Origin: Agelas oroides
Lineage: Eukaryota; Porifera; Demospongiae; Agelasida; Agelasidae
Length of the DNA: 64,000 nt
Direction: 5' to 3'
NCBI GenBank assembly: GCA_949130485.1
Contig: OX422184.1
Coordinates: forward strand, 8,906,996 to 8,970,995
Positions 13,542 through 58,848 of the stretch are shown here, one piece after another. Every line of letters starts with the position of its first letter. Positions within the stretch are counted from its first letter, which is position 1. A model generated the notes under the pieces. That model made no database searches and was not told the origin of the DNA. It saw only the letters and a program-made list of their open reading frames with translations. The translations under genes were made by a program, and so were the position numbers.

Positions 13542-13828
13542 TTCACCTCATGTCTTTTTATGCTCCACCCCTTCAGCTTGCTGGAGTAAGGAAATGCAAG
13601 TTAGGGTAAGGGGGAGAGGGAGGAAGGGAGAGGAGGAAGGGAGAGAGAGAGGGGGTGTATAGGGGTCCAGATGTGTATTAAATTGTGTCAGTAAATGACA
13701 AGTAATAAATAACAACTTGTACAAAATTAATAGCAAACTGACCTCGTTGCTGGGTGTAGATGAACATATCAGCAAAGTTAGTCAATCTAGGTCTGTTCAG
13801 TCTGGTGTAACACAATCTACATGGAGGC

Positions 13829-14569
13829 TTGACTTCGATCTTTGGAAATATTGACAGTGCTGATGGGACCAAATTCGCCTTGTTTGTAAAGGACAAATTT
13901 AGTGTATCAGATGAAGCTTACCATGAAATTTCACAATTGACACATGATCTTCCACGAATGTATGAACTAAAATCAGCTTCAAAAGAGATCAATTCAAGGA
14001 CAATAATTTCCCCAACTCCAGGACATATTCTTGGTGTTCAACAGCATCTAAGAGATCATTTAGTTCTTCAACTACATCATCGACTCAAAGACAGTCAATT
14101 TTTGTCTCGCTACCACACTAACAAACACATTAACATCAAGCTCTCTGGGGATGGAACACGAGTGGGTAGAAACCTACATGTTGTCAACTTCACCTTCACG
14201 CTTGTAGATGAGCCACAAGCAACTTCTGTGGCTGGGCACCACACTCTGGCTATCCTGGAAATGTCCGAACATTATGATGAACTATCAGCTACTCTACAGG
14301 ACATTGCAGATGAGGTCAATGATCTTTCACAGTTGGAACTTGGTGAATTTTATCAACTTCAGTATTTCTTGGGAGGTGATTGGAAGTTTTTAGCACTTAT
14401 TTGCGGGTTAAACGCTGCCAATTCTGATTACAGTTGCATATGGTTCAAAGGATCGTTGGAACATGGAACTGAAATGGTCTTTCGATACAACCAAGGGTGC
14501 TAGAACAATTGATGAAATCCAGACACTGTCAAAAAAGGGTGCTAGACAACATTTTGGCTGTGTAAGAGC
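13829..14569 (+). pseudogene. Family X DDE-type transposase, 5' part, split by a transposon
   Basis: A 224-codon frame plus a frameshifted continuation from 14463. It aligns residue by residue with the minus-strand protein at 49628-51261. Shared blocks are the VxDKFxVSxxxYHE motif, PTPGxxxGVQQ, the SGDGTR block (probable first catalytic Asp; residues 107-112), GGDWKFLAL (residues 182-190), CIW and GARTIDEIQ. The second Cys of the CIWC pair is Phe here. A frameshift sits near 14465. The frame runs into the left end of the 14570-21353 transposon and resumes at 21358. I can only place the family as CACTA-like DDE. Confidence 0.7.
14566..14569. repeat. Target-site duplication GAGC, left copy
   Basis: GAGC immediately precedes the left terminal inverted repeat and is repeated right after the right one at 21354-21357. 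Removing the element and one GAGC restores an open family X frame, which supports this as the true duplication. Confidence 0.8.
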
Positions 14570-14607
14570 CCTGCTGGAAAAACTACACTTGAAACATGCA
14601 TGTTTCA
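14570..14607. repeat. Left terminal inverted repeat, 38 bp
   Basis: CCTGCTGGAAAAACTACAC, then T, then the palindrome TGAAACATGCATGTTTCA. It matches the reverse complement of 21316-21353 except for that T (A in the other end). Confidence 0.88.
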
Positions 14608-14930
14608 TGCATGTTTCATGCATGTTTCAGCAAATTTCATGCATGCTTCACCATGCATGTTTCATGCATGTACCACATACAATGTGCATGCATGTTTCAT
14701 GTTCCATGCATGAAACATGCATGGAACATGTGAGAAATTGGGACGTTTTTCATGCATGTGACATGCATGGTTCATGCATGTCACATGACATGCATGAACC
14801 ATGCATGTTATGTTAATGCCATTCATGCCATGAATGAACCATGCATGAACCATGCATGCATGAATGGTCTATACCAAATGTTAATACTAGCATGTTTCAT
14901 GCAAGTTTCATGCAGGAATCATGCATAAAT
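14584..14930. repeat. Left subterminal TGCATG array
   Basis: Dense repetition of ATGCATG with spacers TTTC, GTTTC, AACC or TTC, forming many overlapping palindromes such as CATGCATGAAACATGCATG. The array reads through as the repetitive string 'HACFMHVSCM', which is a by-product of the DNA repeat. CACTA elements characteristically carry transposase-binding subterminal repeats, so these are candidate binding sites. Confidence 0.85.
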
Positions 14931-15014
14931 CACAGTTGCCATGTATGTGTGGAGAAGGAAAAGTCAAGATGTTGTACATGTATACATACACAATGTACAA
15001 TAACCACTAAACAG

Positions 15015-17083
15015 TTACTGAGCATGCAATCGCATGATCGCCCTTCTTTCATCACCACACTTGGTGGTGAGATCTCTTTTGAGCTTGTCATACGAGATGG
15101 AAGGGAACTTCATCTGGCAGTATTCTGTTATAGGAAAAGCAAATCTATATGAATCAAGTTACATATGCAGTAGTACAAAGGTTATAAAATTAACGTACTG
15201 AAGATCGCTGTTTTTATGGTCTCATTGAGGCCCTTTGTGGCGGAGGATGCAGCTAGACGCTGGGATGAATACCACACATACAAGAGGGAACGCATCAGCC
15301 CCGTGGCTGTTTGCTTAGAAGAGTTGGCATGGCTTTCCAGGTCTACAAATGAGATGTAAATGCCCATGTTCTCAACAAGTTCACATTTCTGTAGAAAATA
15401 AAAAATAATAAATAGTAAAGTAGTATAGTAGTAGTAGTAGTATAGTGTACAAACACTTACACCTGGTCCTGGTTCAAATGCTTTCTGCTCTCGGGCTAGG
15501 TCCTGGGGTGTCAGCTTATAGGTATATCCTCCACTGGTAAGGGTAGTACCACCAGTAGCACAAACAGCCTCTCCTGCAGCTGTCACCTATATGATTTGCA
15601 GGTAATTATTTTCAATTTTGTAAGTTGATAATCACAAACTCATTACCTTTTGCTCTTTTGCAGCTGAGGGGTTTACATTCACTGAGAGTTGGGGCTATGT
15701 AGGTCAGTAGAGAACATTGAGGTGGTGTATTCAGAAGATAGCTAGGTTGACATGCACATACAACTGCTTGCAAAAGTGCAAACCTTTGTTTGTGCTTCCT
15801 GATTGTCATCCCCGTGCAAGCTGGATGTGGTCACTGGAATGTAGTTCACACTTGGGCTGCTGCTGTTAGGGTCGTAGAAGTCTGCCAGGGCTCTTAAAAA
15901 CCTAACACCTCCAGGAGAAGCAGGAACTGTGAGGAAGATAAGAACAAGATGTCCACTTAGTGATAAAGAAGGCACAGACTGTTGATGATTTACACACAAC
16001 AAAAATAACCTGAAGGCATTTGGCTCCTGGGCTCACAGTCTTGAAGCAAAAAATTGAGCTCGTCTACCTCCTCATTCAGAGATGCGATTGATGATTCTTT
16101 ATCGATCAGCTTCTCTTTCAATTCCTCCAGCTCTCTTTGTAGGTTATCACACCTTTGGCAAGGAATTTTTTCCTTCCAATTTTTCAGCATTTCCTCCATC
16201 GCTCCTCTCTTTCCTTGTCTTGTTTGTTACTGTTAAGTCTCTCACTGCGATTTTTCTTCAGCAGGGCAACGTCCACTCCTCCCTTTTCATCCTGGTCTTG
16301 CTTTGCCTTCTTGGGTTCATCTCCATCATCATAGTAATCATCAATGTATTTTCGGTTTACCTTTCTCTTTCGCTTTGAATTTCCATCATTTTCCGTGCCA
16401 GTACCCTCTTCAGCTACATCTTCTTTGACTTCAACTGATGCTGCAACCAGGTCTGTCATCTCAACATCCAATTCCTTTTTATCTATGATAAAAAGGAATT
16501 GGAAAGTGAAAAAGAGCTAAAGTAGATCCAACAGGTATTTGAAAGAAGTGGAAAGTGAAAAAAAAGAAAAGAAAAAAAAGAACAATAAATAAAGCGGATG
16601 AGTGAAAAAGAAACTTAAAGCATAGACATTTTAAAATTAAAAATGCAAGGCTGTGTGACAGTGGAAGAGGGTTAGAGGAAGGGAGGGGGGAGGCGACGAT
16701 CACAGTAAATACACGGATATAATCACGTATGCGTGTTCACCCTACTTACGCTAATTTGCCTGATGTCAATCACTTGGATCGGGTACTTGCTGTAAGTGAT
16801 TGACATCAACCGCAATACTTAGCGTGAGTAGGGAAACGCGCTAAACAATTGCTGCTGAACAAGCTAACACTAAGCTAACAACGGTTAACACGCTAGCTAC
16901 CAAAAGCAATTTAGCTAGCTTACCTCCCGTTTTCAAAATATCCGCATCGTATCTACCGCCACCAGGCCAGCGGCAGGTCCCTCGAACGGGGAAACTGTCG
17001 AGCGACGACGGCGAAACGACGCACTTCCTCGGTATCACGGAGTACTGTTTCTCCCCGCACCAGTAGACTATAACGTGAGACAT
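15015..17083 (-). CDS. BEN-domain protein of the transposon, six exons
   Basis: Minus-strand exons, all with GT-AG junctions and compatible phases: 17083-16924, 16482-16010, 15926-15784, 15586-15461, 15388-15199 and 15124-15015, stop at 15015-15017. The N-terminus (MSHVIVYWCGEKQYSVIPRK…) looks like a small beta-rich module. Next come an acidic and basic stretch (SKRKRKVNRKY, a likely nuclear signal) and a coiled coil (LQRELEELKEKLIDKE). The last three exons form a BEN domain: KLTPQDLAREQKAF, CELVENMGIYIS, TATGLMRSLLYVWYSSQRLA, KGLNETIKTAIF, then YDKLKRDLTTKCGDERRA at the C-terminus. BEN domains bind DNA, several as dimers on palindromes. Oddity: the exon 16482-16010 changes frame between about 16280 and 16199, so there is a 1- or 2-nt indel or an unseen micro-exon. 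Total length is about 400 residues. Confidence 0.78.
16739..16833. repeat. Hairpin in the first intron of the BEN gene
   Basis: Arms around 16739-16775 and 16792-16833 share, in inverted orientation, CCCTACTTACGCTAA and TGATGTCAATCACTT with an interruption. It lies wholly within the 441-nt intron. Confidence 0.65.
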
Positions 17084-17517
17084 ATTTGCAGAACGCCTGG
17101 ACCATAGATTTAAACACCAGCTAGGCAGTGAAAAAACAAAGCAGCTGCATATAGCATGCAGCTGCTGCTGTATTTTTGGCGCGCGACGTACCAGCGCTAG
17201 CGCAGCGCAGCGTGCGTGTACGTGTACCTTACGTTCGTCGCGCCGTCGCTATAGCAGCAACCAGATAACGCAGCCCGGCATTGTCCCGGATATGGATTTG
17301 TCCAGTGTACGTGTATGTGTAGCTCGGTCGTCGAATTAAAGCGCTAGCGTGACAATGGAACCAGGGCAGACAGACAGCAACGTTGCACCACCTACGGTAG
17401 GGTGTTTATGCATAGATACAAATAATTAAGTGCTTATATATAAAACAGCAATGATACACACACAAGTCTCTTTATTGCAGTATTAAAGTAATAGAATTAT
17501 AGCTTTGATCAAAAAAA
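17084..17517. promoter_or_regulatory. Divergent promoter region between BEN and transposase genes
   Basis: The two start codons (17083 on minus, 17518 on plus) face away from each other across 434 bp. Positions 17175-17260 are rich in CpG and in GCGC/CGCG runs, unlike the AT-rich surroundings. A short possible upstream exon (ATG 17355, 14 codons, donor GTAGGG at 17397) with an acceptor at 17479-17480 would lead into a stop, so it is more likely an untranslated leader or uORF than part of the transposase. Confidence 0.5.
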
Positions 17518-20500
17518 ATGCATGCTGCGCTGGGATTGAAATGCCCGAGGATTGTTGTGTATGTTCATGAACTACAGAAAAGAGCTCGAGGTCCGTATCA
17601 ACAGAAATATAAAATACCGAGACAAACCCTCCACTACAGAAAGAAAAAGCTGGCAAGAGATGGGAATCAAGCTGAACCTGCAGACCTGCTGTTCAACACA
17701 CGCACAGTAGGTACATCAAACTCGTCTCAAGAACTCTCCAACACTGAGTCTGATAATTCAGATACTGACATGCAAGACCCACAGTCTTTTGACGAGGAGC
17801 AAGCCAATTCCAGCTCACAAGATATCACTAGCACTGATCTTATTGAGCCTCTCGATATCAGTGGTGCTACAAGTAGCAGTAGCATACAAGGCTCCCCAGA
17901 GAATACAGGCAGCTATGCAAATCAAAAGTTGTATGAGGGCAGTTTGATGACTGTGAAGAGTAGTTGCATTACCATTAACAGATTTATTCACAAATACCAC
18001 CTGAGCAAACAAGCACAAGAAGATTTGTTAAGCCTCCAACAACAGCTCCTTCCCACTCCAAACTGGCTTCCGTACTCCTTGTATCGCTTTCGGAAAGTGA
18101 TCGATTTTGGACAGGATCCCATGGAATTGCACCACTATTGCATCAAATGTTTTTATCCAGCCGGTAGTGCTGCAAGCACTTGCAGCAATCCATCCTGTGG
18201 AGCAGAGGTTGGCAGCAGCTACTTCATTGTGCTGCCCATTCGCTCACAGCTAAGGAAACTACTGTCCAGTACGTTACATATATACACAACTGATGGTGCA
18301 GATGTGTGCGTTTTACACAGTGTGTAATGTACGTTTAACCTTGTATAGGACCCCATTTTGTGGAGTTGCTTCACTATGCTACTGAACGAAAGAAGATTGA
18401 TCCTCAAGCAATTGAGGACATATACGATGGGTGTGCCTACAGGTGTATTGAACATGCATCACCAGTTGGTAGTATGCACCTCTCCTTCATCATCAACACT
18501 GATGGAGTTGATATACTCCACACATCTGACTTCCATCTCTGGCCAGTGCTTTTGATGATAAACGAGCTTCCTCCCACTCTCAGGTTATTTTGTCAATTGT
18601 ATATATACATGGCTGTCTGCATGCACGGTGTGCTCTACACTTATAAATATATAAATTTTAATACAGGAAGAAACATGAGAACATGTTGATGGCTGGCGTG
18701 TGGTTTGGTCAAAACAAGCCTGTCATGTCCACGTTTTTGGAACCAACTGTTGAAGAACTTTTGAAGCTTGAAACAGAAGGTAAACATATAAACTTAATTG
18801 TTATATATACATTTGCATGCATTATGTAAATACCAGAACGACATACAATTATGGTTATCTTGTTGCTTTTTTTTAGGAGAAATAATAGATTTGCCCTCAA
18901 ATTCACAAGATGTGGTTGTACAGCCTACACTTGTTAAAGCTCATGTCATTGGTGGCTGCTTTGACCTACCTGCTCGTGCATTGGTATGGAACTCAATGCA
19001 GTTCAATGGTGAATATGGCTGTACGTTTTGTGAACAACCTGGTGAGACAGTTCGTACTGGAAGAGGTGCACATGGGCACGTTCTTGCATTTCCGTTTGAT
19101 GAGAAAAATCCAGATGGTCCCCACCGTACAGCTGCCACAATCAAGCAATACTCAGTGGTAGCCGTTGAGGAAAACCAAGTAGTAAGTCATTACATCTGTA
19201 TAATTGTTATTGATGTACTGATCAAATCACTATATATTCTAGGTCAAGGGAATAAAGGCACCATCATGGCTTTCCTGCCTTCCTTCTTTTGATCCTGTGT
19301 GGGGGTATTCTGTCGAATACATGCACTGTACCTTACACGGAGTTAACAAGCTGCTAATAAGCTTGTGGATCGATCTACCCAAGTGCCAACATACAGCACA
19401 TGATATCCATCTTCATGTGAACCTCATCAACAAGAGAATACAACAGATCAAAGTCCCAGCTGAGATACCCAGGAAACCTCGATCACTAGACCAACTTGCA
19501 CATTGGAGGGGTAGGTACTTACCTGTATGGTGATATGCTCTGAACTAGTACATTGAGATATTGATACTTTTAGTCGAACTTTTCACTAGTGAAAGATGTA
19601 ATGCAGTCTTCATTCTCTGTCAATGTATAGTTGATATATTAGTTGTTTCCTTCACTAGTAAAAAATGTCAACTAATTATCATAATCTCATTGCATGCTGT
19701 ACCAGTACAATGAATTCTCCATGCAAACTATTATTAAAACTATCTCAATGTCAACTCACAGCCCACGAACACAGGGCATGGCTTCTTTTCTATTCCATAC
19801 CTGTGCTGCTTGGAATTCTCAACTTGGAGTACATCAGGCACTTGGCTCTTCTCGTAGAAGCTTTGTGGCTTCTTCTCCAGACATCTATCTGCCAAGAGGA
19901 TCTCATACGTGCAGATAAACTTCTGGTTCAGTTCTGCAAACAGTTCAGTTCACTCTATGGTACATATAAGGCATTTTGTCTTTGATGTATACTAATTATG
20001 CCCTCTACCATCTCAATGTTAGGCAAGAAACACGTCAGCAAATGTCCACCAACTGCTTTACTTCACTGACAGTGTAAAACACCTTGGCCCTTTATGGGCA
20101 CACAATACTTTTCCATTTGAAAACGTGAACGGAATGTTTCGGAATCTCTTCCATGGCAGTCGCACTCCTGATGTGCAGGTAGATCATTAACAAAGGCATA
20201 ATACCTACAACTACACGAGACAATCATATATTATATCTATGCAGATTTCAAGAGCTGTTGCAGAAATGCAGAAGATTATGTCAGAATGCAGTGGCGTTCC
20301 AAGCTCATATAGGTATACCTAAAATCATAAATGTATTACACCATGTACATTCATACATCATCTGGTATAATTTCAGCAGATATGCTGTGAAGGAGCAAAT
20401 TGGAGAAGTACAAGTATTGGGTCGTTCATCAACAATCCAAGACCATCCTTTGTTAGGGGCAGTGCATGGAAAAGTGTATTCCAGGCTACTGTTCGGAAAA

Positions 20501-20952
20501 ATGCTTTTAGCCAGCTCACAATATAATCGACCGGAAGTTAAAGATGACACTCTAGTTTCTTACAGAGAAGGAGAACAGCTGAAACATGGAGTAGTTGACA
20601 GATATGTCAGCTACTGTGAGCAGTCATGTCATTCATGCCAAAACTACTGCAAGCATGTTGCTGTTGTGATGCCAGTTGAAGAACGCCCAATCACAGAAGT
20701 TACACAGGAAAGAAATGGGCTTCGACATATGTGCATTGGATTGACACAGTAAGATAATAGAAAGTGTAAAATGCAAATTTACAATCATACATGCCTTGTT
20801 CATCTTGCAGGCAGTCAAATGCATCTTTCAAGATAGTTCCAGTTCAGAACATTATCACCAAATGTATCACAGTGAACCTCACAGAGGAAACAGCAGCACA
20901 GCCTCGACTCTTTATTGCCGACTTACCCAATTTATACGAGAAAAACCTATAA
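17518..20952 (+). CDS. CACTA-like DDE transposase, ten exons
   Basis: Exons: 17518-18268, 18349-18583, 18667-18779, 18877-19181, 19243-19510, 19762-19959, 20039-20178, 20245-20312, 20377-20748 and 20811-20952. Every junction is GT-AG and the sum is 2592 nt, exactly 863 codons plus stop. Landmarks in order: a basic N-terminal segment (YQQKYKIPRQTLHYRKKKLA), an acidic linker, a C-x2-C…C-x4-C zinc-like motif (HHYCIKCF…CSNPSCG), SQLRKLL, IINTDGV (probable first catalytic Asp), ENMLMAGVWFG, the C-x2-C insertion GCTFCEQPGETV, EYMHCTLHGVNKL, WLLFYSIPVLLGIL, LGPLWAHNTFPFENVNG (probable catalytic Glu) and a C-terminal cysteine cluster CEQSCHSCQNYCKH. At the second catalytic position, where this family normally has D-Y-M-H, the protein has E-Y-M-H. 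Exon 7 could instead begin at 20023, but that breaks the frame. Promoter shared with the BEN gene. Confidence 0.85.
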
Positions 20953-21029
20953 TAATTGTGCTATTGCTAGCTTGTACTTATTAAATGTCGATAACTCTCT
21001 CATCTCTCTCATTTTAAGTATGCATGCAT

Positions 21030-21330
21030 GGCTCATACTTGCATGGATTATGGAAGACCTATCCCATGCATGGTTCATGCATGGAAAGGGAGATCCATGC
21101 ATGCTTCATGCATGGAAGGTGAGATCCATGCATGCTTCATGCATCGAAGGGGAGATTCATGCATGGTTCAGCACGGAAGGGGAGATCCATGCATGGTTCA
21201 TGCATGGAACGTGAGATCCATGCATGCTTCATGCATGGTGGGGAGACTCATTGAAAACCATGCATGTATCATGCATGTAACATGCATGATACATGCATTC
21301 ATGCATGAAATATGTTGAAACATGCATGTT
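21030..21330. repeat. Right subterminal TGCATG array
   Basis: From about 21057 to 21247 a roughly 36-bp unit is repeated five to six times: GGGGAGATCCATGCATG, GTTCATGCATGGAA and similar. It is followed by ATGCATGTATCATGCATG palindromes. The sequence differs from the left array but uses the same TGCATG core. Confidence 0.85.
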
Positions 21331-21353
21331 TCATGTGTAGTTTTTCCAGCAGG
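21316..21353. repeat. Right terminal inverted repeat, 38 bp
   Basis: Begins with the palindrome TGAAACATGCATGTTTCA and ends GTGTAGTTTTTCCAGCAGG; one mismatch to the left end. Confidence 0.88.
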
Positions 21354-21357
21354 GAGC
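21354..21357. repeat. Target-site duplication GAGC, right copy
   Basis: Identical to 14566-14569. Confidence 0.8.
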
Positions 21358-25350: not shown

Positions 25351-26253
25351 TCACCACTGGGGAGGCCTTTCACCCAATCCCCAATCAGCATCCAAACAGG
25401 CAGGTTTGAGGCGTTCAACCGATACAGTGTCCTGTCGACCATTGAGGTCTAGTGTGAAAAACTTTGCGGCTCGCTCAAGCACTTTGAAGGGTCCATCATA
25501 GGTGCACTGCAGGGGGGTGCGATGAGCAACTCTGAGGGAGTGTTTGGTTCTCACGCCCGGTCGTACCGATAACCGCATCAGGTCTCCAAGGTGAACAGCC
25601 TCTAGTTGATAGAACAATGTAGGTAAGGGAAGTCGGCAAAATAGATCCGTAACCTTGGGAAAATCCGCAGGTATGTGAGTGGACGGTCGTCTGTGATGAG
25701 CTGTCTGCTTCGGTCGCAGTCTAGCCATGGTGTTACGAAGGTGTGTAAGCAGATCAGACATATCTGGCTCAGCTGCTGGTGTACATTCGAAGAACTCCCC
25801 AGGTAGACGGATTGTTGTGTCGTAGACAAGTTCGGCAAGCGCACACCCGAGGCCTTCTTTGGGGGCTGATCGGAGGCCCAACAGGACTAGTGGCAGTTCA
25901 TCCATCCATGCTGGCCCTACCAGACGGGCCTTGAGTGCCGCTTTAAGCTGCCTGTGGAATCGTTCAATGATGCCATTTGCCTGTGGGTGGTAGGCAGTTG
26001 TGTGATGTAGCTGAGCCCCCAGTAGTTTCCCCAGGGTTGTCCACAGGTTGGAGGTAAATTGTGGCCCCCTATCAGAGGTGATGTCCGTTGGCACACTGAA
26101 CTGTGCAATATGATGTGACATGAGAGCCCGGGCACATGAGGTGGCTGTAGCATCAGCCATCGGTATGGCCTCTGGCCACCGTGTGTAGCGGTCGATGATG
26201 GTAAACAGGTATGATTTGCCCTGTGAAATGGGCAGAGGTCCAACCACGTCCAC
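25351..26253 (-). pseudogene. Gypsy integrase core and C-terminal region
   Basis: About 300 codons. The catalytic triad is visible: Asp in MDVVGPLPISQG (residue 2), Asp in TSDRGPQFTSNLW (near residue 60) and Glu in HPQANGIIERFHRQLKA (near residue 98). The remainder is the variable C-terminal part, ending close to 25351. A stop codon (TGA, near 26257) separates it from the upstream pol frame, so the chain is interrupted at the start of the integrase core. Confidence 0.85.
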
Positions 26254-26259
26254 ATGAAT

Positions 26260-28350
26260 TCACTGGAAGCGGCGATCTGGCAGCTGGCCATGCTCCAGCG
26301 GGGCGGTCACATGTCGTTGGACCTTTGACTTCTGACAGGAGATGCATGTTTTGGCCCACATACCCACTTGCTTGTTGATGCCATGCCACACAAAACGTGC
26401 AGTCACCATCTTCCGAGATGTTTTAATGCCTGGATGTGCGAGCCTATGGATGGCCTCGAAGACGGCCCGCCGCCATGAGCGGGGAACGATGGGCCTGGCA
26501 GTGCCGGTCGAGGTGTCGCACAGCAAGGTTGTGTCGGTACCTGGAAGGGGTACGTCGGCGAGTACCAGCCCGGTAATGGCCGTACGATATGCTTGGACCT
26601 CAGCATCTGCTTGTTGTGCCTGTGCCATACTGAGGAGGTCAAGGCTTGGTCGCCCTGCAGCCATGCATACGGGATGGGTGCCCAGTTCCACGCGGGAGAG
26701 GGCATCTGCCACTGCATTGTCCCGGCCATGAACATGACGCACGTCTGTGGTGTATTCGGTTATGAAGGCGAGGTGGCGTTGTTGCCTCGGCGTCCAGCGT
26801 TCTGAGCTGCTAGCCAGGGCAAATGTAAGTGGTTTGTGGTCGGTATAGATGTGAAACCGTCGTCCTTCGATGAAGTAGGAGAAGTGTTTGACTGCTGAAT
26901 ACATGGCTAGAAGCTCACGGTCAAAGGTGCTGTATGACTTTTGGGCCTTATCCAGCTTCCGGGAGAAAAAAGCTAGCGGCTTCCAGTTGCCATCAAGGAA
27001 CTGCTCGAGGACACCTCCGACACCCAAGTCAGATGCGTCGACGGTGATGCAAGTGGTGGCAGTGGCGCTGGGGTGGTTGAGTAGGGTTGCCGAGGCTAGT
27101 GCATGTTTCGTTGCATCGAACGCTGACTGATGTTGGGTAGTCCACTGAAAGTCCTGACCCTTCGCGTGAGACAAGCCATGTAAAGGACCCATAAACGCAG
27201 CGGCGTTTGGTATAAATCTGTGATAGAAATTTACCATGCCTAGAAACTCACTCAAGGCTTTGGCATTCTGTGGTCGTGGAAATCGACGGATGGCCTCAAC
27301 TCGCTCAGGTAGTGGTTCAATACCCTGTGCTGTAACCTGGTGGGCGAGGAAGTTTATGATCTCCTCACCGAATGTGCACTTCGCTACGTTGATGACTAGC
27401 CCATGCTCTGCTAGCCTCTGGAAGAGAAGATGCAGGTGACGCCGGTGCTCCTTGGCGTCGGGGCTGGCCACGAGAACGTCGTCGATGTACACAAAGAGGA
27501 AATCCTCGAGTCCCTGACAGACTTGGTCCATCAATCTCTGGAATGCCTGTGCTGCATTCTTGAGGCCGAAGGGCATGCGGAGGAACTCGAATAGGCCAAA
27601 TGGCATTATCACAGCAGTCTTCGGTACATCGGCAGCAGCCACAGGTATCTGATTGTACCCGCGTACTAAGTCAACCTTCGAGAAGATCATTTTACCTTTC
27701 AATTGAGAGGCGAAGTCTTGGAGGCGTGGTACGGGGTACCGGTCATATGTTGTGACTTTGTTCAGACGTCTGTAGTCACCACATGGGCTCCAGGTACCTG
27801 GAGTCTTCTTCTCCACCATGTGGAGTGGTGATGCCCATGGGCTGGAGGACCGACGGATAATTCCTAGTTTCTCCATTTCAGCAAACTCCCTCCGAGCAGT
27901 GGCCAACTTTTCGGGTGACAAGCGGCGTGCTTTAGCATGCACTGGAGGGCCCGATGTGGGAATGCAGTTGACGTCTACACTAGCCACATCATCGACGCCA
28001 AAACGTATGAGAGCGTACCCGTCTGGCAGGACGTAACACCGGCACCCGGACTCAATGCCTGCTCTGCTGGTAACGAGTTCGCTGACATCCTCAAGGAATT
28101 CCCATCGGTCACACGACCTCAATTTTCCACCGGGGATGTGAAGCATAGTGTGGAACACATGAGAAGGTGGTTGCTGCAGAAGAAATCTGACCTGAGCTCC
28201 TGTATCTACGAGGAGCTTGTGGCCGCTGTTGCGGTCCCATACATACAATAAATGGCTTTGACTTTGGCCAGAAACCTGCGCCACTAGGTTCTGGCCTGTC
28301 TGTTTCCCGAAGGTGGACGGTGCTCTGCTGTTAAGGGTGCGCAGGCGCAT
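26260..28350 (-). pseudogene. Gypsy pol: protease, reverse transcriptase, RNase H, integrase zinc finger
   Basis: A 696-codon frame. Aspartic protease motif LLVDTGAQV at residues 46-54; RT with KVDLVRGYNQIP (225-236) and active site FVYIDDVL (286-293); RNase H with ITVDASDLGVGG (435-446), DREL (477-480) and YTDHKP (502-507); and an H-H-C-C zinc finger near the C-terminus (HPGIKTSRK…CISCQKSK). Residues about 65-130 are out of place: part of the link between protease and RT reads correctly only on the opposite strand (27964-28158). The frame is open but encodes a scrambled region there. Confidence 0.85.
27964..28158 (+). other. ~195-bp inverted segment inside gypsy pol
   Basis: On the plus strand this stretch translates to protein-like sequence (DAKTYESVPVWQ, NEFADILKEFPSVTRPQFST, GDVKHSVEH). 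This is the type of linker expected immediately before PTSGPPVHAKARR of the minus-strand pol. Both junctions rejoin in frame if the segment is flipped. ATG at 27962-27964 and CAT at 28158-28160 form an inverted trinucleotide at the breakpoints. Confidence 0.75.
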
Positions 28351-29058
28351 GGTGGCCTGCAGGCCCTAGCCTTGTGGCCAAACTTGGCATGATACCAGCA
28401 AAGGTTGGTTTTCTCAGGGTGGTGTGGCGGCGATTTCTTCCCCATGGGTAGGGAGGACGCATAGATCGATGGCAGTCCCCGCTTTGCGACCATAATGATG
28501 TCAGCTTTGTGTGCTAATGCTGGTATAGGGTGTCTGCATCAAGGGCTGTCACTTGCACACGGACATCTTCAGGTAGCTGGCTAAAAAGATCCGTCGCATG
28601 AGGACATCCTGACTGACTGTGAGGCTTTGGATATGTGCACAGAGCTGGGAAGGTTTCCAATCGCCAAGCCCAGAGAGGTCAAGAAGCCTGTCTGCTTTCT
28701 GGTCGTCTGTGAGGCCGTAAACCTCCATGAGCTTGCTTTTTAAGTACTCGTACTTGCCCTCTGTAGGTACTGCTGCCACATCTCCGGCCATCCTCTCAGC
28801 CACCACCGGGTCTAGGGATGTGAGGTGGTAGAAGTACTTGGTGGTGGAGTCTGTGATGTTACGCAGAGCAAATTGAGCCTCTGTTTGCTGGAACCATACA
28901 TCGGGCCTGGATGCCAAGAACGTAGGCAACTTGAGAGAAACGGCATGCACGGCAGCGGCAGTGGCTGCTGCAGAGACTGCCACTTCAACAACTATTCCAA
29001 ACAGTAACAAGGGCATCATATGACAGCTTGACTGACTGTGATTTATATCATTATGCAC
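28284..29058 (-). pseudogene. Gypsy gag, frameshifted
   Basis: The main frame (29058-28549) includes KLPTFLASRPDVWFQQTEAQ and LRNITDSTTKYFYHLTSLDP, a capsid-like core typical of invertebrate gypsy Gag. Near 28580 the frame shifts; SQLPEDVRVQVTALDADTLY continues in another frame. A zinc-knuckle-like CWYHAKFGHKARAC lies in a third frame at about 28380-28420, with the pol frame starting at 28350. At least two frameshifts are present. Confidence 0.75.
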
Positions 29059-29524
29059 TAAATAATAACTTACACGGATTCTTAGGCAGTTTTCTAGTCG
29101 ATCGCTGTCATTGTAATGTCTGAACTTGTTGTGCCGCCTTATTCTGTGTATTCTGGGTATCTCTATATAGCCCCTATCATTACTGAACTATTTAATTACT
29201 GTGTGTATGATGGTGCTTTTATGTTTTGCTGCATGTGTTGTGTTGTAAGGTGTGATTTCAGAAACAAATCAGTTCTGCCCCAAAGCAAGTGGAAGTTTTA
29301 GTTGTGTGCTGAGAGCCAACTAGTTAGCCTACGTAGATTGCTACATTTGTGGGTGTGGTATCCTCGCACACCGATATCGATTATAATATCACCACTGTAA
29401 GGTCGACTGAGATTATTGACAACTGACAGAACAGAGTTATACATGCACATATATAAAAATCTTAAATGACGTCATACAGGAAATAAGGGAAACCATACAC
29501 AGCTCAACATACAATAGACACTAC
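29059..29524. other. No gene; between two gypsy relics
   Basis: This would be the place for the 5' LTR of the element at 25.3-29 kb, but I see no match to the sequence downstream of its integrase. Short open frames are uninformative. Confidence 0.4.
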
Positions 29525-30385
29525 TGCTCCTGTCCCCACATCCATTTAACATCTTTCTGTAGGAGATGGTACAACTGTGACAAAATGGTTGAGAGATTTG
29601 GTAAAAACCGGTGGTAATAATTTATGATGCCAAAAAAGGATCGTAGCTCACTGACATTTTGTGGCTTTTGAGCTTCTTGGATTGCTCAGACCTTCTCAGC
29701 TGTTGGGTGTAACCCTTCTCTGTCAATGACATGTCCGAGGTATTCAATTTGGGAGCGGAGGAAGAAACACTTAGATCTGTTTACCTTCAACCCCGAGTTT
29801 TGTAGCTTCTCTAGCATGTATTTAAAAGCTGCAGGTGGTCGTGTAAGGTTGGACCAGTAATAAGGATGTCGTCAATGTATACTGACACTCCTCCAATCCC
29901 TTGTAGCAGGTTTTCCATTGTCCGTTGGAAAATTGATGGGGCTGACGATACCCCAAAGGGTAGACAATTGTACCTGTACAAGCCTTTATGTGTGTTCACC
30001 GTAACATATGACTCCTCGTCTAAGGGCAACTGTAGGTACGCTTGCGACAGGTCTAATTTTGAAAAATACTGGCCTCCAGCTAAATTCGCTAGCAGTTCAT
30101 CCACCCTGGGGAGTGGGTAGGAATCTGCAGAACAGGCTCGGTTTACGGTCATCTTATAGTCTCTGCAGATCCTGACTTCCCCACTCTGCTTGACTACAGG
30201 GACTATGGGGGCTGCCCATTTCGAAAATTGGACTGGTGAGATAATTCCCATACTTTGTATAACTTCTCCAACTCCCGTTCAACCTTCTCTCTAAGTGCTA
30301 GTGGGACTGGGCGTGCCTTGAAAAATTTGGGGGTAGCGTTGGGGTCAACATTTAATTTTACTTCCATCCCTTTTAGGCACCCCAA
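29525..30385 (-). pseudogene. Second Ty3/gypsy: reverse transcriptase
   Basis: Minus strand: LNVDPNATPKFFKARPVPLA, then VVKQSGEVRICRDYKMTVN, YFSKLDLSQAYLQLPLDE and the active site VSVYIDDILITG at about 29870. After a frameshift near 29820 come LKVNRSKCFFLRSQIEYLGH and FFGIINYYHRFLPNLS down to a stop at 29525. RNase H and integrase are absent. The sequence is clearly different from the other gypsy copy and resembles the lineage whose Gag carries two CCHC knuckles. Confidence 0.82.
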
Positions 30386-30444
30386 CTCATCAGTGAATAT
30401 GGAGGAATACTTTGCAAGTACCTCTAGTAGTGACCTCTCTTCCT

Positions 30445-30960
30445 CTACAGTGTGCAGACTCTGACTAAGTGACCACGCTTCTTACATGCATGGCATACTG
30501 TGTTGATGAAACGACACGTTGAGGCTAGGTGGGGTCCTCCACACCTGTAACACGCCACTGCATTTCCTTGTTTAGGCGGCCTCGGCGACTCTCTCCTCTG
30601 CCTGTTCTTAGGCTTTTGTGCGGCGCTATAGTGTACTTGTGGTGTCGTGCTCATTGACTGGGCAGCCCGTAGTTGTGTGTCGCGCTCCGCTGACTCGATC
30701 GCTTGAGCCAGTTCCATTGCCTTGTCAAAAGTTAGCTTCTTTTCGGAGAGTAAACAATTTGTAATGGCTTCGTGGTTCACTCCGCACACTAGCCTGTCTC
30801 TGAGCATGTCTTGCAATGACTCCTTGTTCCTGCTATACTGGAATACTGTCGTCATAGCAAACATAAAGATGTCAAGGAGATAATCAGGAATGCAGAGAGC
30901 AGTGGGGAAGAAGGTATCGAAATTTAATCGACTTGACAACCTGTCACTTGCCCCTTCCTG
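30445..30960 (-). pseudogene. Second Ty3/gypsy: Gag C-terminus with two zinc knuckles
   Basis: Minus-strand frame with LRDRLVCGVNHEAITNCLLS, KLTFDKAMELAQAIESAERD, and two CCHC knuckles: CYRCGGPHLASTC and CHACKKRGHLVRVC. The upstream end is cut at about 30960 by sequence of the TTAA repeat family (GTGTGGCCTAGCCTTACTAG). The missing Gag N-terminus may correspond to the MATHGTIGEYDYSKDW start in the array at 55.9-57 kb. Confidence 0.8.
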
Positions 30961-30984
30961 CCTCTCTATGGTAACGATGTCAGT

Positions 30985-31500
30985 TGAGCGGTGTGGCCTA
31001 GCCTTACTAGTACTCAACAAAACGGGACCTACCCTCAAACTTTATTAAGCTTCTTCATGCTGTACACCGCCTAGTTTGAATAAATCGCTTATGCATATAA
31101 ATTAGCCTTGTCGTGCAACACCTAGAAAGCCTGTGCAAAGGGCTAAGAGAGCAGCGCTCACATCTTTGGCAATACATGTATATATAAAAGCCGATGTATA
31201 TAAACGTCATAGTTCATAATCACATGATACTGGCTGTCATTTGACACACCCTCACTAATTAAGTGCATCTGCAAACAGTGGATAGCAGGCCCTTTTCTCT
31301 GATTTTTTGAATGGGTCTGGGAACGAGGCCAGCATATAAATCTGCACTTCACAAGTTAACATGGTAGTTCTGCCATTACTAGTGCTACCAGTTTGAAGGT
31401 TCAAGTGACAAGCATTACTAGCAAGCCCTGGGCAGTGCCAGTGGCTTGATTTGTAGGCTAGACTAGTTGCTCAGAATAGATGATCACTGCTACATAAGCT
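30985..31500. repeat. Pieces of the TTAA repeat family
   Basis: 30985-31060 matches GGTGTGGCCTAGCC…CTACCCTCAAA…TTAAGCTTCTT of 23439-24086. 31385-31500 matches the early part (CAAGTGACAAGC…GCCAGTGGCTTGATTT). The order is rearranged. A half copy of the CTGGGAACGAGGC palindrome is at 31316-31332. Confidence 0.5.
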
Positions 31501-39083: not shown

Positions 39084-40607
39084 TTACATGTTGTACCAGA
39101 GTCGAAAACAGTCTGATTCATCTCCCCTCCCTGTTAGGCAGAGTGCTGGTGTGCCTTCACAGTCTGGGCAGTACCAGACTGTCTCTCGCCTCCTGCTGAT
39201 GGGCCTGTAATCTTGGCAGTAAATACACCGCTTTTTTGCTTGGTTAGATGGCAGATGAAGAGGGGTACTGTGTTGGTGCTGTGAGGCAGAAGGGCCATTG
39301 TGTTCGAGTTGTGCTGGTGGACGTCCTGCTCTCTTTCTGGTACAATAATTTCCAATCAATTGTGTAGCTAGTGTGAGCCGGAAGGATTTTAGAGATCTCA
39401 TGTATGATGTAACTGGGCTATAATGTGAGAGGATATGTGCGTTGGTAATGATCACATCGACTAAAACCCAAAATATATACTTGTAGTTCTTTACGCATTT
39501 TGTCCTGATGCGGTAGTAGTGTCGGAGTTGATCCCCCTGATCAACCCCTCCCATGTACTTGTTGTACACTACTACCGCCTCAGGACATGGTATTGTGATT
39601 TTGCTACCATCCTTCTGCTTTCTCTCCACAGTCTGAGCAGTATGTGGGTCACACATTGTGGAAAGCATCTTCACGTCTTTTTTGTCCTTCCACACTGTTA
39701 TAACCAGGTTCCCACGCTGGCACGACTCGTGTTGTCCTCGCTCTGTTATGACAACCTTCTTCAGTGTCTCTGGAAAGCCACGCCGATCAATTCGAGTTGT
39801 TCCACATGCATAGATGTTCTGCTGCAAGAGCTCCTCGAAAAGTCCAGCAGTGGAGAAGAAGTTGTCACAAAACATCTGGTAGTTGCCTCCATGTAGTGGT
39901 CTGCAGAGCTGAAGTACCACCCTCTCTCCCAATCCAACTTCGGTCGATCCTCCGTCTAATGGCCTCCCAACATACACATCAAAATCGCAGAAGTAGCCTG
40001 TGATAGCGTCCGCTCGCACCCATACCTTGAAGCCCCTCTTGGTTGGTTTCAGAGGCATGTACTGCTTCATAAATATGTAGAGGAAAGTGAGAAGCCCAGC
40101 AGTCAAAACATCTAAATATCTCTATTCCATTGTGAGGCAGTAGTTCTATGCAATATCCCCTGCTTATCAACAACTTTCCTATGTTTCTCATTTAGCTATG
40201 CAATATAAAAAGTTACATGCGAACTATACTGTTGCAATGAACATACTTATAATTGCTCACCAATTTGCAGGGCGATCTTCCATCGCTTCAAGCATCTGAA
40301 AGTCTCTTTAGGCAACAATATTCAATACACATACCTTTGAAAGGGATCATGGCCTCATCAATGCTGTTTTGTGCATTTGGCCTGTAGAGGGACAAGCAGC
40401 GCTGCTTCATTGCGGAGATGATCGGTTGAACTTTCTGTAGCCTGCTATACCCCCTGTTCTCCCCTTGCAGGTAGCTGGCTGTTGTCAGCGAAATGAAGGT
40501 AGTGGCTTATCTCCTCAAACCTGTTGCGAGAAATCCGAGATGCAATGGGGTTATAGTGTGAAACTGTGCACATAGAGCTTGACCACTTGGTTGTACGAAC
40601 TGTTGTA
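39084..40607 (-). pseudogene. piggyBac transposase, nearly complete
   Basis: The upstream exon (about 40607-40338) has HYNPIASRISRNRFEEISHY, then a 1-nt shift in a G run near 40456, then LSLYRPNAQNSIDEAMIPFK with the first catalytic Asp and a donor GTATGT. The downstream frame (40106-39084) has MPLKPTKRGFKVWVRADA, the second Asp in YQMFCDNFFSTAGLFEELL, the third in YNKYMGGVDQGDQLRHYY and a C-terminal cysteine-rich finger (CIYCQDYRP…WYCPDC…C). All three catalytic aspartates are present. The exon junction loses a few residues (GRSSL expected before KQYMP), and I could not place its acceptor with certainty. The frameshift makes this copy probably inactive. Confidence 0.82.
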
Positions 40608-49627: not shown

Positions 49628-52345
49628 TTAAGAATCTTGATCTCTCAGTTCACATGTACGCGCATTGTGACCTGTAGTCTTACAAAGTTTACAAACGTGG
49701 ACTTGTTTAGGACGACAGCAGTCTTGGTCAGTTAGGTCCTCTAAACGATTCAGTTTTAGAAGCATTTGTTTCAGAGCATCACAGTCACGATGGTTTGTAC
49801 TTCTGAAATAATCCTTGGTAAGGTCGTCATTGAGTTCCTCTAATCCTTGTTGAGAGAATGGGGCAAGTGTACCGTACATCTCAAGAAATTGAGGTATGTG
49901 GCTCACAAGTAAGTGCATATAAGGTGTGACGTGTTTAGTCTGGTACACTGATAAAAAAACTGTCATCCAGTTTATCACACGACTTTGAAATCTTTTCACT
50001 CTCTCATTATCCAAAGCAGTAGTAGACTGAAGAACAAGGTAAATCTCAAGAAACTCTGTCCATAGTTCTTGCACTTTGACAGCATGTGGAATTCTTGGGA
50101 AAAGCTGTGGAATAGCTATTGCCTTAAAAAGTCGGAGCTTTTCAGGACCTGTCAAGTCTCTCCATTTTAAAGTCTTCGAGTCTTTGTCAACGTACATATG
50201 AAAGCTGATCTTGCACGTTTCTTGAAGGAATCGTTCATATGTTACCACATTTGTTGCTCTGCTTCGGTCAAGTGCTTGAAGCTTGCATTTTTCAATTCCA
50301 TCGAGTCTTCTTAACTCTAGTATTAGCAGGTTGATGAGACTATCACAAACCCTAAGAAATAGGTGGAGAACATCTGGAATTACATGATGAATAGGAATTG
50401 TGGGAAACAATGGTTGTCTGGCACAACTGTAAGTTTGATTACATCTTTTGTTCAGCCTTGCCAGTCGCTGAATTTCCTCAATAGTTCTAGCACCTTCCTG
50501 TTCATTCGTTATCGACCACACTTTACTAATGTCGTGTCGGTCTTCCGAAGGACATACACACCAAATGCAAGAATACTTTGCATTTGCAGCTTCAATTCCA
50601 ACACAGAGAGCTAGAAATTTCCAGTCTGCTCCAAGAAAGAATTCGACACTATATTCATCACCAACCTTCAATGATTTCAACTGCTCTATTTCAGCTCGTA
50701 TGTCTTCCAATGCTTCAGACAATACTTCATAGTTCTCTCCAGCATTCAAAATTGCTATTGTGTGGTTTCCTCTAGGAGAATTTGGATTTGCTCCCTCTTC
50801 AACTACTACGAACGCTATTATAACTGCGTGCATGCTGTGACTAATGCGTGTTCCATCTCCAGTTACTTTCACTCAAACTTGTGCATTTTGAGCAAGAGTG
50901 GGAATTTCTTTAACTAGAATTTGTATTCGTTTTTTCAGCTGTTCTTTGAGTGACTGTTGTACCCCAACAACTGTTCCAGGGGTTGGGCAAACAGTATAGT
51001 CGGCGTCTAATTCCCTTGCTCTTTTTGTCAATGCTGATGTACGTGGGAGTCCCTTATTCACCATTGCAAGCTCATGATATGTCTGATTGGACACATTGAA
51101 ACGCTCTTTTATGTAAAGTGTTTTGTCAACCAGATTTTCAATACTCGTCTCAGATTCTGCTCCTCTTCCCACTCTAGTTCTGCCATCCTGCTCAACAGAC
51201 AATACTTCCCCTGTGTCCTTATTAATAAGTTCCTCACAAGTTGGCATAAAATCTTCATTTTCTGTAAATGAAAGAGTAAGCTTAAAGACATTAAGAGCAC
51301 ACAAAAGACTATACTATGACAAGGTAATTTGAGCTCAATACAGTAGCTATAGATCTATTCGGCTATTCTGTGCTGTCTAGTACATGTACTGTATGTATAT
51401 AATTTTTAGAGCTAGCTCTTACCACTTTGATCTGCGCCATGTAAATTATGCTACCATTGAATTACGTCTTTCAACTTCTTGTTAGCTTCCTTGAGCTCTA
51501 CCTGTAGCTTAGCGCATTTGTTCTTGCAGGATTGAGCTATCACATGCTCTGGTTTTCGTTTTCGATTTGAATATGGAACAATCTCCTTTCCCGCAAGTTC
51601 AACTACCCAAATTGTCTCCTTCCATTTATTAATCAGCTTTGCTCGTCCTGTTCCACCACAGGCGTGAAGAGCCCTACCCATCCTGTATAGCTTTGATTTA
51701 AATACTGATCGTAAACGATCAGTTATGACAACATCACATCGATATTGAGTAAAAACTTTGACGATAACTCTTTCTACTGCAAGTTGGTCAGAAGATAGAG
51801 ATAGTTCCAATGGCAAATGTACTGAGGCTTCATTGTCACTTGATAGATCAAACAGTGGTACACCATACTTGTTTGGATGACTGAAATTGTACAGGATGTG
51901 ACTACAAATAGGAAAGGAAAAATAATTTAGTGACAGGTAGAGCAACACACACACAGTACATATGCATGACACACACACTATAACACACAAAACACACACT
52001 GCACACACATACACAACTCACATTGCATACACATACCCAGCACACGTTGAACACACTGGCATTGCATATACATACTCAACACACACACACATAGCACGCA
52101 TACACAGCACATGCATACACCATAACACATACAACAAGCATCAACTTGACAAGTACATAGCTTCTTTAGCACGTAAAGTTACTCTGTACTCACTTGTTTA
52201 CTTCCAACGATTGTAGCGCCGTCATCAGATGCTGCCGTGCCCTCGTCACCCAAACGCACTTTCTCGACCACTACTTATATCACAATGACTGCGGTAGCTG
52301 TTCTTGTATTTAACCCTGGCAAGGTCGTCTTCCTCCAATACTCTT
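49628..52345 (-). pseudogene. Family X transposase, longest copy
   Basis: Minus-strand exons: about 52345-52194 (chromo-barrel-like start, donor GTGAGTAC), about 51890-51467 (VERVIVKVFTQYRCDVVITD…KNKCAKLQVELKEANKKLKD), and 51261-49628. The last has PTPGTVVGVQQSLKEQLKKR, then a TGA at about 50871, then TGDGTRISHSMHAV, GADWKFLALCVGIEAANAKY, CIWCVCP, PIHHVIPDVLHLFLRVCDSL, LEELNDDLTKDYFRSTNH and a CCHC knuckle CKLCKTTGHNARTC. The D (TGDGT), D (IPDVLH) and E (LEELND) positions parallel the D-D-E order of CACTA-like transposases. A single in-frame stop is the main visible defect of the last exon. Confidence 0.7.
51948..52135. repeat. CA-rich degenerate microsatellite
   Basis: Runs of ACACACACAC and CATACACA with interruptions, inside an intron of the family X copy. 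Confidence 0.85.
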
Positions 52346-57186: not shown

Positions 57187-58345
57187 GAGGTGTTACCATT
57201 TCACAGAGCGCATTTTCTCACTCCGTGACAGTCTGGGGCTTGGAGTAACATGGCCAACTCGAAGAGAAAGTGCCATTCTTCTGCTGCTACTCATGGAAGT
57301 GAGGACACAGTTTTTCCTGAAAGGTGAGTAAGTACCTGTGTATAATTCCCTTAAAGCCTGTAAGGGTACCATGTTTTTTCTTCCACTGCCATTGAATAAA
57401 ACACTTGAGACCCTTGACCAGGTACAGCCTACTAGCAATGTGAAGATTCTTCTGCCAAATCCAGAGTTGTTTATCTTAGTAAATGGGAAGCCCACAAAAA
57501 GTAACACCGTTTGGCGGACCTTAGTGGATGTAAATGCTGTAAACAGTGCGATACAAACACTGAAACAAACAAACTGGCTATACGTAGATGTTGATGATGC
57601 ATCTGTTGACGAGGCAGCTACAAAGGTTATAGAAGTTGTGAGGAATGCTAGTAGCACTATGCTGGAGAAGGCAAGTGTAGACGATATCCAAGGCTTTCAA
57701 GCTTTCACCATCCGAAACTTAGACAACAAATTGTCTACGGATTCTGACACGGAGCAATACAAATTGCTCAATGTCAAGGAAGACCCCATAGACAATCGTC
57801 AACAATATCTTGATGTCATGTGCTTCCCAACACTCTTTCCCACTGGAAAGTTTGGTGAACATCACCCACGTGCAGTCAAGCTGTCTCACAGTGAGCACAT
57901 AAAATCACGGCTGCTTAATAAGGACTCTAGGTTCCGTAAGGAGCCGCAGTATGTCTTCTACCTGTTATGGCAGAAAGAAATGCGAGAGCTTTCAGCTGGC
58001 ATATATAATCTTCTAAAGTGCACAAGAAGCCAGCCCATGACTGTCAGTACACTACTAAATCAGATAAAAACATCTGATGACGCTCTTGAAGCAAATTTAT
58101 GCACAATGCTTCAGAGTGTCCGCGGCACCAAACAGTACTGGTTCATAAGGCAAAGTGAACTGCGGTGCATGATTCGTGAGTGGGGTTCACCTACGTTCTT
58201 TCTCACGTTTTCGTGTGCTGAGTACGAGGCACAAGATATCACAAACTATCTAAGAAGGGTAAACAATGTGCCTTCCAGCTATGACAGGGAGGCTTTGTAC
58301 TGAGGATCCGATATCAGTTTCGAGACAGTTTTCTTTGAAGTTCCA
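57187..58345 (+). pseudogene. Helitron Rep/helicase, N-terminal domain
   Basis: One frame from 57187 to 58303 with a single TAA at 57329-57331. Downstream: LNKTLETLDQVQPTSNVK, VNGKPTKSNTVWRTLVDVNA, GFQAFTIRNLDNKLSTDSDT, YLDVMCFPTLFPTGKFGEHH, FYLLWQKEMRELSAGIYNLL and SPTFFLTFSCAEYEAQDI, the conserved Helitron-like N-terminal domain. Near 58288 the frame slips; TEDPISVSRQFSLKFQ continues to the breakpoint at about 58345. A GTGAGTAAG at 57324 overlaps the TAA and could be a donor for an alternative short exon (ATG 57250). Confidence 0.82.
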
Positions 58346-58544
58346 GGAATCTGACACGTAATCCTCTCCTGAATCCATGCTAGCACTTTGCCAGGCTCAT
58401 CCTGATCAATAATTGGTGCGTCTCTGATCCAAAGGAGCACATGATAATGCGGTGCTCCCTTGTTTTGGAACTCTTTCTTCCAGTAAAAGTGATCTACTTT
58501 ACCAAGAACCTCACCTTTGACCAAAACTTTCTGGAAGAAAGCAC
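58346..58544 (-). pseudogene. Inverted Helitron segment with the HUH nuclease motif
   Basis: The minus strand reads AFFQKVLVKGEVLGKVDHFY, then WKKEFQNKGAPHYHVLLWIR with H-Y-H at the place of the Rep HUH motif, and ends AWIQERITCQIP. The flanking plus-strand parts are the residues expected immediately before (SLKFQ) and after (NESNPDLHRLV) this block. The segment has therefore been flipped in place, within a base or two. About 199 bp. Confidence 0.82.
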
Positions 58545-58848
58545 TGACAACGAGTCCAACCCTGACTTACATAGACTGGTTACTAGGTACCAAATGCACA
58601 AATGCAGTGCGTATTGTAAACGAAGACGTAAGTGCAGTGGCAACACGTTTATTACCAGGTGCAGGTTTGGATTTCCTTGCCAAGTGTGTGAAAATCCAAA
58701 ACTGAGTTCCGTACAAGAGAGTCTCAAGTGTAGAAGGCGGATATATGAGCTACCACGCTCACATTCAGAGGTCAGAGTAAATGACTACAACCCGCTCTTG
58801 CTAATGCTCTGGAAAGCTAACATGGACATTCAGTTTGTGGCAGAGTCA
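58545..58848 (+). pseudogene. Helitron Rep, region after the HUH motif
   Basis: NESNPDLHRLVTRYQMHKCS, CRFGFPCQVCENPKL, RRIYELPRSHSEVRVNDYNP, LLLMLWKANMDIQFVAES in one plus frame. The last serine is followed by the second inverted segment. Confidence 0.8.

Follow-up and report, generated by a model that had tools for sequence, protein, structure and literature searches.

A sponge transposon pairing a tnp2-type transposase with a BEN-like gene: a candidate two-component system of the CMC group

The window analyzed here is a stretch of 64,000 nucleotides from the sponge Agelas oroides (assembly GCA_949130485.1, contig OX422184.1, forward-strand positions 8,906,996 to 8,970,995), and it contains a 6786-bp transposable element, hereafter el1 (window positions 14569-21354; contig C2 of the 259-Mb genome). 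el1 carries two divergent genes, one for a transposase of the tnp2 type and one for a protein with a BEN-like C-terminus, and its ends harbor arrays of a short motif spaced mainly by 11 bp. This gene pairing recurs in diverged relatives within the same genome (el2 to el6), and array motifs vary in step with the BEN sequence. From these sequence comparisons we propose, with a probability of roughly three in four, that el1 represents a two-component transposon of the CMC (EnSpm-Mirage-Chapaev) group, whose BEN protein would play the role of TnpA in plant elements. An earlier reading of the window alone (the original prediction) had likewise cast the BEN protein as the binder of the subterminal repeats in a two-component system, and both the recurrence of the pairing and the change of the motif with the BEN sequence argue for this idea.

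Results

Bounds, insertion site and mobility of the element

The following features delimit the element and its target site:

14567-14568, unstranded: left copy of the target-site duplication, AG
14569-14607, plus strand: left terminal inverted repeat, 39 bp, starting with CCCTGCTGGAAAAACTACAC, identical to the right end in 38 of 39 positions
21316-21354, minus strand: right terminal inverted repeat, 39 bp, identical to the left end in 38 of 39 positions
21355-21356, unstranded: right copy of the target-site duplication, AG

The termini read CCCTG..CAGGG, and their outermost bases were assigned by comparing 13 insertions with distinct flanks, namely the window copy and 12 short derivatives (a 14th copy shared the flanks of another). 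The CCTG end is preceded by C in 12 of the 13, and the CAGG end is followed by G in all of them. If this outermost C/G is assigned to the element, 11/13 insertions fit a 2-bp duplication, two fit 1 bp and none fits 3 to 6 bp; without it, a 4-bp duplication fits two, the window copy among them. We therefore consider the outermost C/G as part of the element and the duplication as 2 bp long, which sets the bounds at 14569-21354. The original prediction of a 6784-bp unit with 38-bp inverted ends thus captured a real element that is slightly larger at both ends, while the 4-bp duplication that it proposed is rejected as an alternative reading of the window site.

The insertion itself is documented by an uninterrupted copy of the target repeat that survives at C2:9945481-9945566. 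It carries a single AG and aligns continuously across the insertion point, with 83/86 columns identical and the remaining ones forming a 3-base gap away from that point. el1 sits inside a copy of a gene-like repeat (13811-14500, resuming at 21355), whose left piece has no Pfam match above the cut-off. This repeated family, recognizable by the motif GLNAANSDYSCIW / HVIPDVLHLFLR, has a further copy in the window at 49631-51313 (minus strand). In addition, the sequence TTTGCTGGAAAAACTAC, which differs from the element end in two bases, has numerous copies in the genome and perhaps marks the ends of another short repeat family.

The family also includes 13 non-autonomous copies, 1.18-1.49 kb long and bounded by the same ends, found at 13 of the 16 loci L055-L070; at the other three, the second end lies outside the DNA examined. 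As ten of these 13 derivatives are 95-100% alike among themselves, the family moved recently. Furthermore, the non-autonomous copies keep the arrays at both ends, which suggests that the arrays matter for mobility. The closest other transposase piece seen is a partial one at C1:603889-605089, with about 83% DNA identity over 1.2 kb.

The transposase gene

The original prediction had described two divergent multi-exon genes around a CpG-rich spacer, and all three are borne out. The observed/expected CpG ratio of the spacer is 1.31, compared to 0.53-0.57 outside the element, and this segment is probably the shared promoter of both genes. The spacer and the transposase gene comprise the following features:

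16930-17400, unstranded: CpG-rich divergent spacer
17355-17396, plus strand: possible alternative first exon of the transposase gene, MEPGQTDSNVAPPT, with a putative phase 0 splice to 17578
17518-18268, plus strand: exon 1
18349-18583, plus strand: exon 2, with the first catalytic D, residue 302 (gene model and alignment)
18667-18779, plus strand: exon 3
18877-19181, plus strand: exon 4, with the second D, residue 396, and C415-x2-C418 (gene model and alignment)
19243-19510, plus strand: exon 5
19762-19959, plus strand: exon 6
20039-20178, plus strand: exon 7, with H627-x3-H631 and the catalytic E651 (gene model and alignment)
20245-20312, plus strand: exon 8
20377-20748, plus strand: exon 9
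20811-20952, plus strand: exon 10, with the stop codon

The ten exons are joined by GT-AG introns and read through to a product of 863 aa, which matches the Pfam family Transposase_21 (tnp2, PF02992) with 34.9 bits at a cut-off of 28.6. PF18759, which we take to be the Plavaka model, is absent among the Pfam matches up to E 1. Protein searches returned 39 relatives, the named ones including molluscs, octocoral, fish and wasp, and no relatives of the element were confirmed in the viral_contigs and genome_contigs scans. In an alignment of the query with 19 of the 39 relatives, all proteins share D302, D396, C415 and C418, while H627, H631 and E651 are nearly invariant.

A D-D-E triad with C(2)C and H(3-4)H is the signature of the EnSpm-Mirage-Chapaev group (PMC12730594; this and the other papers are cited here from excerpts). 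In el1, both motifs lie between the second D and the E, as expected for the CMC/CMCT clade, and the 2-bp duplication falls within the 2-5 bp range of this clade. The 5'-CA..TG-3' termini of most of its members are not found in el1, and neither are the CACTA termini and the 3-bp duplication of plant En/Spm proper. Since the source gives the CA..TG ends only for 'most cases', we file el1 in the clade by its transposase only, which, judged by its sequence, is of the tnp2/CMC type.

The BEN gene and the identity of its C-terminal domain

The second gene is encoded on the opposite strand, to the left of the spacer:

16924-17083, minus strand: exon 1, encoding the N-terminal domain MSHVIVYWCGEKQYSVIP (gene model)
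16010-16482, minus strand: exon 2, encoding a charged linker and, by eye, a probable coiled coil; frame broken near 16209
15784-15926, minus strand: exon (gene model)
15461-15586, minus strand: exon (gene model)
15199-15388, minus strand: exon with most of the BEN domain (gene model and profile matches)
15015-15124, minus strand: last exon, with the end of the BEN domain and the stop codon (gene model)

The original prediction had labeled this product a BEN-domain protein. The label draws its support from relatives and profiles and not from Pfam on the window sequence itself, which has no match to PF10523 (cut-off 23.2 bits); no family matched the pieces of the gene that were scanned, outside the coiled-coil stretch. 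Among nine aligned BEN sequences, five match PF10523 at E values up to 10, the best with 0.00025. A profile of four sequences (the window, el2, el4 and a locus on contig C6) retrieves the NAC1 chains 8yzs and 7bv9 with E values of 6.9e-6 and 1.2e-5, followed by one unrelated chain with 1.3. Up to E 10, the profile of all nine retrieves only NAC1 (two chains), BEND6 and Insv (listed as RE55538p), to which we assign the structure 4ix7. The structure of the 63-aa BEN exon taken by itself is predicted with low confidence (mean pLDDT 67, pTM 0.37). On the strength of the relatives and profiles, we consider the C-terminus BEN-like.

A protein search for BEN relatives yielded two matches up to E 10, the better one with an E value of 1.2e-3. 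In one BEN relative, P0040, the BEN C-terminus appears by eye to continue into a repeat that resembles a translated TGCATG array. Moreover, PF10523 matches of 19.8-23.0 bits occur in open frames of 394-421 aa at C2:12776888, C2:13206719, C2:15085608 and C22:4787846, which perhaps represent a second multi-copy BEN family.

Recurrence of the BEN-transposase pairing

The pairing is not peculiar to the window. In el2 (C5, about 6.283-6.290 Mb), a BEN gene on the minus strand lies to the left of a transposase gene on the plus strand, with arrays of CATGCATG at both ends and a BEN domain 52% identical to that of el1. Further divergent pairs are found in el3 (C2:14.706-14.711 Mb), el4 (C2:18.184-18.193 Mb) and el5 (C23:2.478-2.487 Mb). 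Among four transposase loci without a known divergent partner whose upstream DNA was read, one turned out to have such a partner, and it forms the sixth pair, el6 (C5:6.224-6.229 Mb); its BEN gene scores 8.6 bits with a local model (E 0.36), and this weak assignment leans in part on the common architecture. At another transposase locus, on C21 (L081), a BEN-like segment lies on the same strand.

Of the 33 BEN clusters, eight have one of the 56 transposase clusters within 10 kb (7/32 without the window), and five of the eight pairs, including that of the window, are divergent. Placing the clusters at random within contigs gave a mean of 0.25 close pairs and a maximum of 4 in 20,000 trials, and we reject chance pairing on these grounds. 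In this count, rows were merged per cluster, several exon rows and the BEN row C6:2486191 were left out, a length of 8 Mb was assumed for contigs whose length was not known, and the BEN list included weak matches with E values up to 10. Across the elements in which the pairing recurs, the BEN domains are 13-52% identical.

According to the original prediction, copies lacking the BEN gene in its place, or a match of this gene to a host gene at a conserved locus, would count against it. Diverged relatives instead keep the BEN gene back to back with the transposase gene and beside a terminal array, and no such host gene is found among the BEN relatives read, a set that leaves most of the 18 PF10523 places unread.

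Subterminal arrays

Both ends of el1 carry an array of one palindromic motif:

14590-14960, unstranded: left array, on the BEN side, of palindromic CATGCATG copies spaced mainly by 11 bp (self-match at lag 11 of 0.51, z 8.7, reached by 0/500 shuffles)
20991-21315, unstranded: right array, on the transposase side, also of CATGCATG, with 31, 4 and 11 as the strongest lags (lag 11 with z 6.0, reached by 0/500 shuffles)

The motif of these TGCATG arrays occurs 17 times in the left array, 16 times in the right one and not at all in the interior. The 11-bp spacing is shared by all six elements: on the BEN side, lag 11 is the top self-match lag in 6/6 regions, with values of 0.39-0.62 and z scores of 5.1 to 10.1, and none of 500 dinucleotide shuffles per region reaches it. 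A scan along each element returns the same BEN-side lag-11 stretches in 6/6, while lag 11, 22 or 33 comes out on top with 0.36 or more in just 28 of 1829 control windows. Chance periodicity is therefore rejected. Since 11 bases correspond to about one helix turn, the sites of an array would face the same side of the DNA.

At the transposase-side ends of el1 and el2, the lag-11 signal is strong. Beyond the BEN gene, lag-11 arrays are found at nine of 12 BEN loci tested, including three outside the six elements (C17:5.879 and C6:2.496, both chosen by their BEN match, and C21:4459095). In el3, a 63-bp tandem array of 20.9 copies with an inner periodicity of 11 bp directly follows the BEN gene (L075, C2:14710992-14712315). 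As for the outer bounds of the relatives, el5 has 24-bp inverted ends without a visible duplication, those of el3 are doubtful, and none could be fixed for el2, el4 and el6.

Array motifs and BEN sequences

The array motifs sort with the BEN sequences. el1 and el2 have CATGCATG in common; el4 and the loci on C17 and C6, whose BEN domains are 50-83% identical, share the motif ACAACCTTGT/ACAAGGTTGT; and the arrays of el3, el5 and el6 differ from both. Over eight loci, BEN identity and array 6-mer similarity correlate with a Mantel r of 0.76, which is reached by 20 of 40,320 permutations; el4, el5, C6 and C17 each contribute one exon's worth of BEN sequence. A ninth locus, C21:4459095, was tested later: its BEN sequence is 69% identical to that of el5, and its array has the el5 motif, with a 6-mer cosine of 0.64 to el5 and at most 0.15 to the other seven. 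Furthermore, a DNA comparison of el1 with el2 gives 35 matches at an E value of 1e-3 or below, every one of them in the terminal arrays of el1. Shared descent contributes to this correlation, but as the motif persists while the BEN proteins are only half identical, we argue for constraint.

Discussion

A proposed two-component mechanism

In plant CACTA elements, TnpA binds the subterminal repeats and TnpD cuts, and both proteins are needed; from one CACTA element to another, the repeat binders show little similarity (PMC2613891, PMC8195511). Of BEN proteins, the BEN domain of NAC1 selects ACATGT, with the core CATG (PMC7764960); NACC1 is likewise reported to bind CATG, and the coiled coil of BANP to mediate oligomerization (PMC11472053). 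Because the window array is built of CATG, the core selected by the NAC1 BEN domain, and because TnpA provides a precedent, we propose the BEN protein as the counterpart of TnpA. The DDE transposase would cut at the 39-bp inverted ends and insert the element elsewhere, duplicating 2 bp of the target. Its partner protein, with its N-terminal domain, charged linker, probable coiled coil and C-terminal BEN domain, would bind the 11-bp-spaced repeats inside the ends and oligomerize through the coiled coil, and the oligomers may mark or pair both ends for the transposase, in the manner of TnpA in plant En/Spm. Each lineage would have its own BEN sequence and a matching repeat motif. el1 itself would now need the BEN protein of another copy to move, because its own BEN frame is broken.

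Several observations weigh against this interpretation. With regard to the gene, the window BEN domain on its own has no match in Pfam up to E 10 and none in the PDB, and compared to the fragments L043, L045 and L046, which have four more bases but are themselves partly decayed, its reading frame is broken near 16209 by a 4-bp deletion. A 41-base intron could bypass the break, but by eye it is devoid of a pyrimidine tract, and given this poor candidate we regard the BEN gene of el1 as broken. The element, described in the original prediction as autonomous-looking, is for this reason probably not autonomous, and no fully intact BEN gene was modeled in any copy.

With regard to the pairing, three of the eight close neighbors are not divergent (C21:4457983, C21:4459095 and C23:2473170), 50 of the 56 transposase clusters have no detected divergent BEN partner, 48 have none at all within 10 kb, and about 4 kb upstream of the transposases at C1:23816448 and C11:3161295 contain no BEN gene; a Pfam scan of DNA upstream of two transposase loci likewise gave no BEN match. 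The arrangement is thus not universal among transposase loci. With regard to the arrays, the regions were picked after the arrays had been seen, and in wider regions lag 11 is on top in 5/6 and second in el6. At the transposase-side ends, el3, el5 and el6 show a weak lag-11 signal (reached by 18, 7 and 5 of 500 shuffles), and no lag-11 array was found in el4. Likewise, none was present in the DNA examined at three of the 12 BEN loci, namely the L043 fragment, the decayed C5:6756139 and the same-strand segment of L081. Conversely, an el5-like 11-bp array at C1:23818348-23819097 (L011) neighbors the C1:23.816 transposase, for which the DNA read contains no BEN gene, so that an array need not be accompanied by a BEN gene in its element; this element may borrow the BEN protein of el5-type elements. 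Finally, the likeness of motifs and BEN sequences may reflect the shared descent of whole elements.

Among other explanations, the most viable one, which we nevertheless deem unlikely, sees the BEN protein as cargo or a means to evade silencing, that is, as a regulator of chromatin or of the element's own promoters that is dispensable for transposition. This would agree with the chromatin-related roles of known BEN proteins (PMC11472053), the CpG-rich spacer between the genes, and the chromatin enzymes that other transposons carry, such as TET/JBP in fungi (PMC12730594). Yet it leaves unexplained why the arrays lie at the ends that are cut, in el1, el2 and el5 at both of them, why their motif follows the BEN sequence, and why non-autonomous copies keep them at both ends. 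Very improbable, in our view, is that the arrays merely grew like satellites by slippage or unequal exchange, with no binding protein and with spacing and motifs shared by descent: the tandem growth in el3 shows that such growth happens, but different motifs with the same 11-bp spacing, and el1-el2 DNA matches confined to the arrays while the BEN domains are about half identical, imply constraint. Least probable of all, and largely refuted by the recurrence of the pairing at 13-52% BEN identity and at eight pairs versus 0.25 by chance, is an origin of the BEN gene by capture from the host or from an unrelated neighboring element, the pairing being due to chance or peculiar to el1, even though CACTA elements often capture gene pieces (PMC8195511) and BEN-only fragments (L043, L045, L046) exist.

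If the two-component interpretation holds, the BEN domain acquires a role in transposition, and the division of labor between two proteins seen in plant CACTA elements also operates outside plants, there with an unrelated DNA-binding protein. The naturally matched BEN sequences and array motifs would then offer a ready data set for a BEN recognition code. The case of el1 also raises the question of whether host BEN regulators came from transposons. The broader idea of an animal transposon class with co-evolving BEN readers of helically phased end arrays, from which host regulators such as the CATG reader NAC1 descended, is speculative, and we would rather bet against it.

Other features of the window

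Beyond el1, the window contains retrotransposon-like reading frames, by eye of the Gypsy type (25354-28365 and 28552-31041, minus strand), Helitron-like replicase and Pif1-type helicase frames, also by eye (57332-62036), and a frame for what we presume, by eye and from its motif, to be a piggyBac-like transposase (39087-40121, minus strand).

Comparison with known systems

The arrangement is known from plant transposons but apparently has not been described with a BEN protein: in an open-access collection, to which our search was confined (Repbase and subscription journals lay outside its scope), we found no description of a BEN gene in a CACTA-like element, and the excerpts of PMC5704228 mention CACTA and BEN separately and without connection, the latter among the references. 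The likeness to plant En/Spm, with its proteins TnpD and TnpA, encompasses the tnp2 transposase, the inverted ends, the motif-rich subterminal arrays, a second element-encoded protein and the lineage-specific array motifs (PMC2613891, PMC8195511). In contrast to En/Spm, el1 ends in CCCTG instead of CACTA, makes a 2-bp instead of a 3-bp duplication, keeps its two genes apart and divergent where En/Spm has overlapping spliced transcripts, and encodes a second protein that is BEN-like. With the CMCT clade (EnSpm, Mirage, Chapaev, Plavaka, ESTA and Transib; PMC12730594), el1 shares the DDE transposase with C(2)C and H(3-4)H and a duplication within 2-5 bp; its termini are not CA..TG, and 'BEN' has no occurrence in the main text of that source. 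The Transposase_21 proteins of Littorina, Mercenaria, Mytilus and Dendronephthya are about 30-39% identical to the el1 transposase. For the BEN part, the best relative of solved structure is the BEN domain of NAC1/NACC1, a reported CATG binder. While NAC1 is a host transcriptional regulator of BTB-BEN architecture, the BEN-like domain described here is part of a transposon gene and follows a different N-terminal region.

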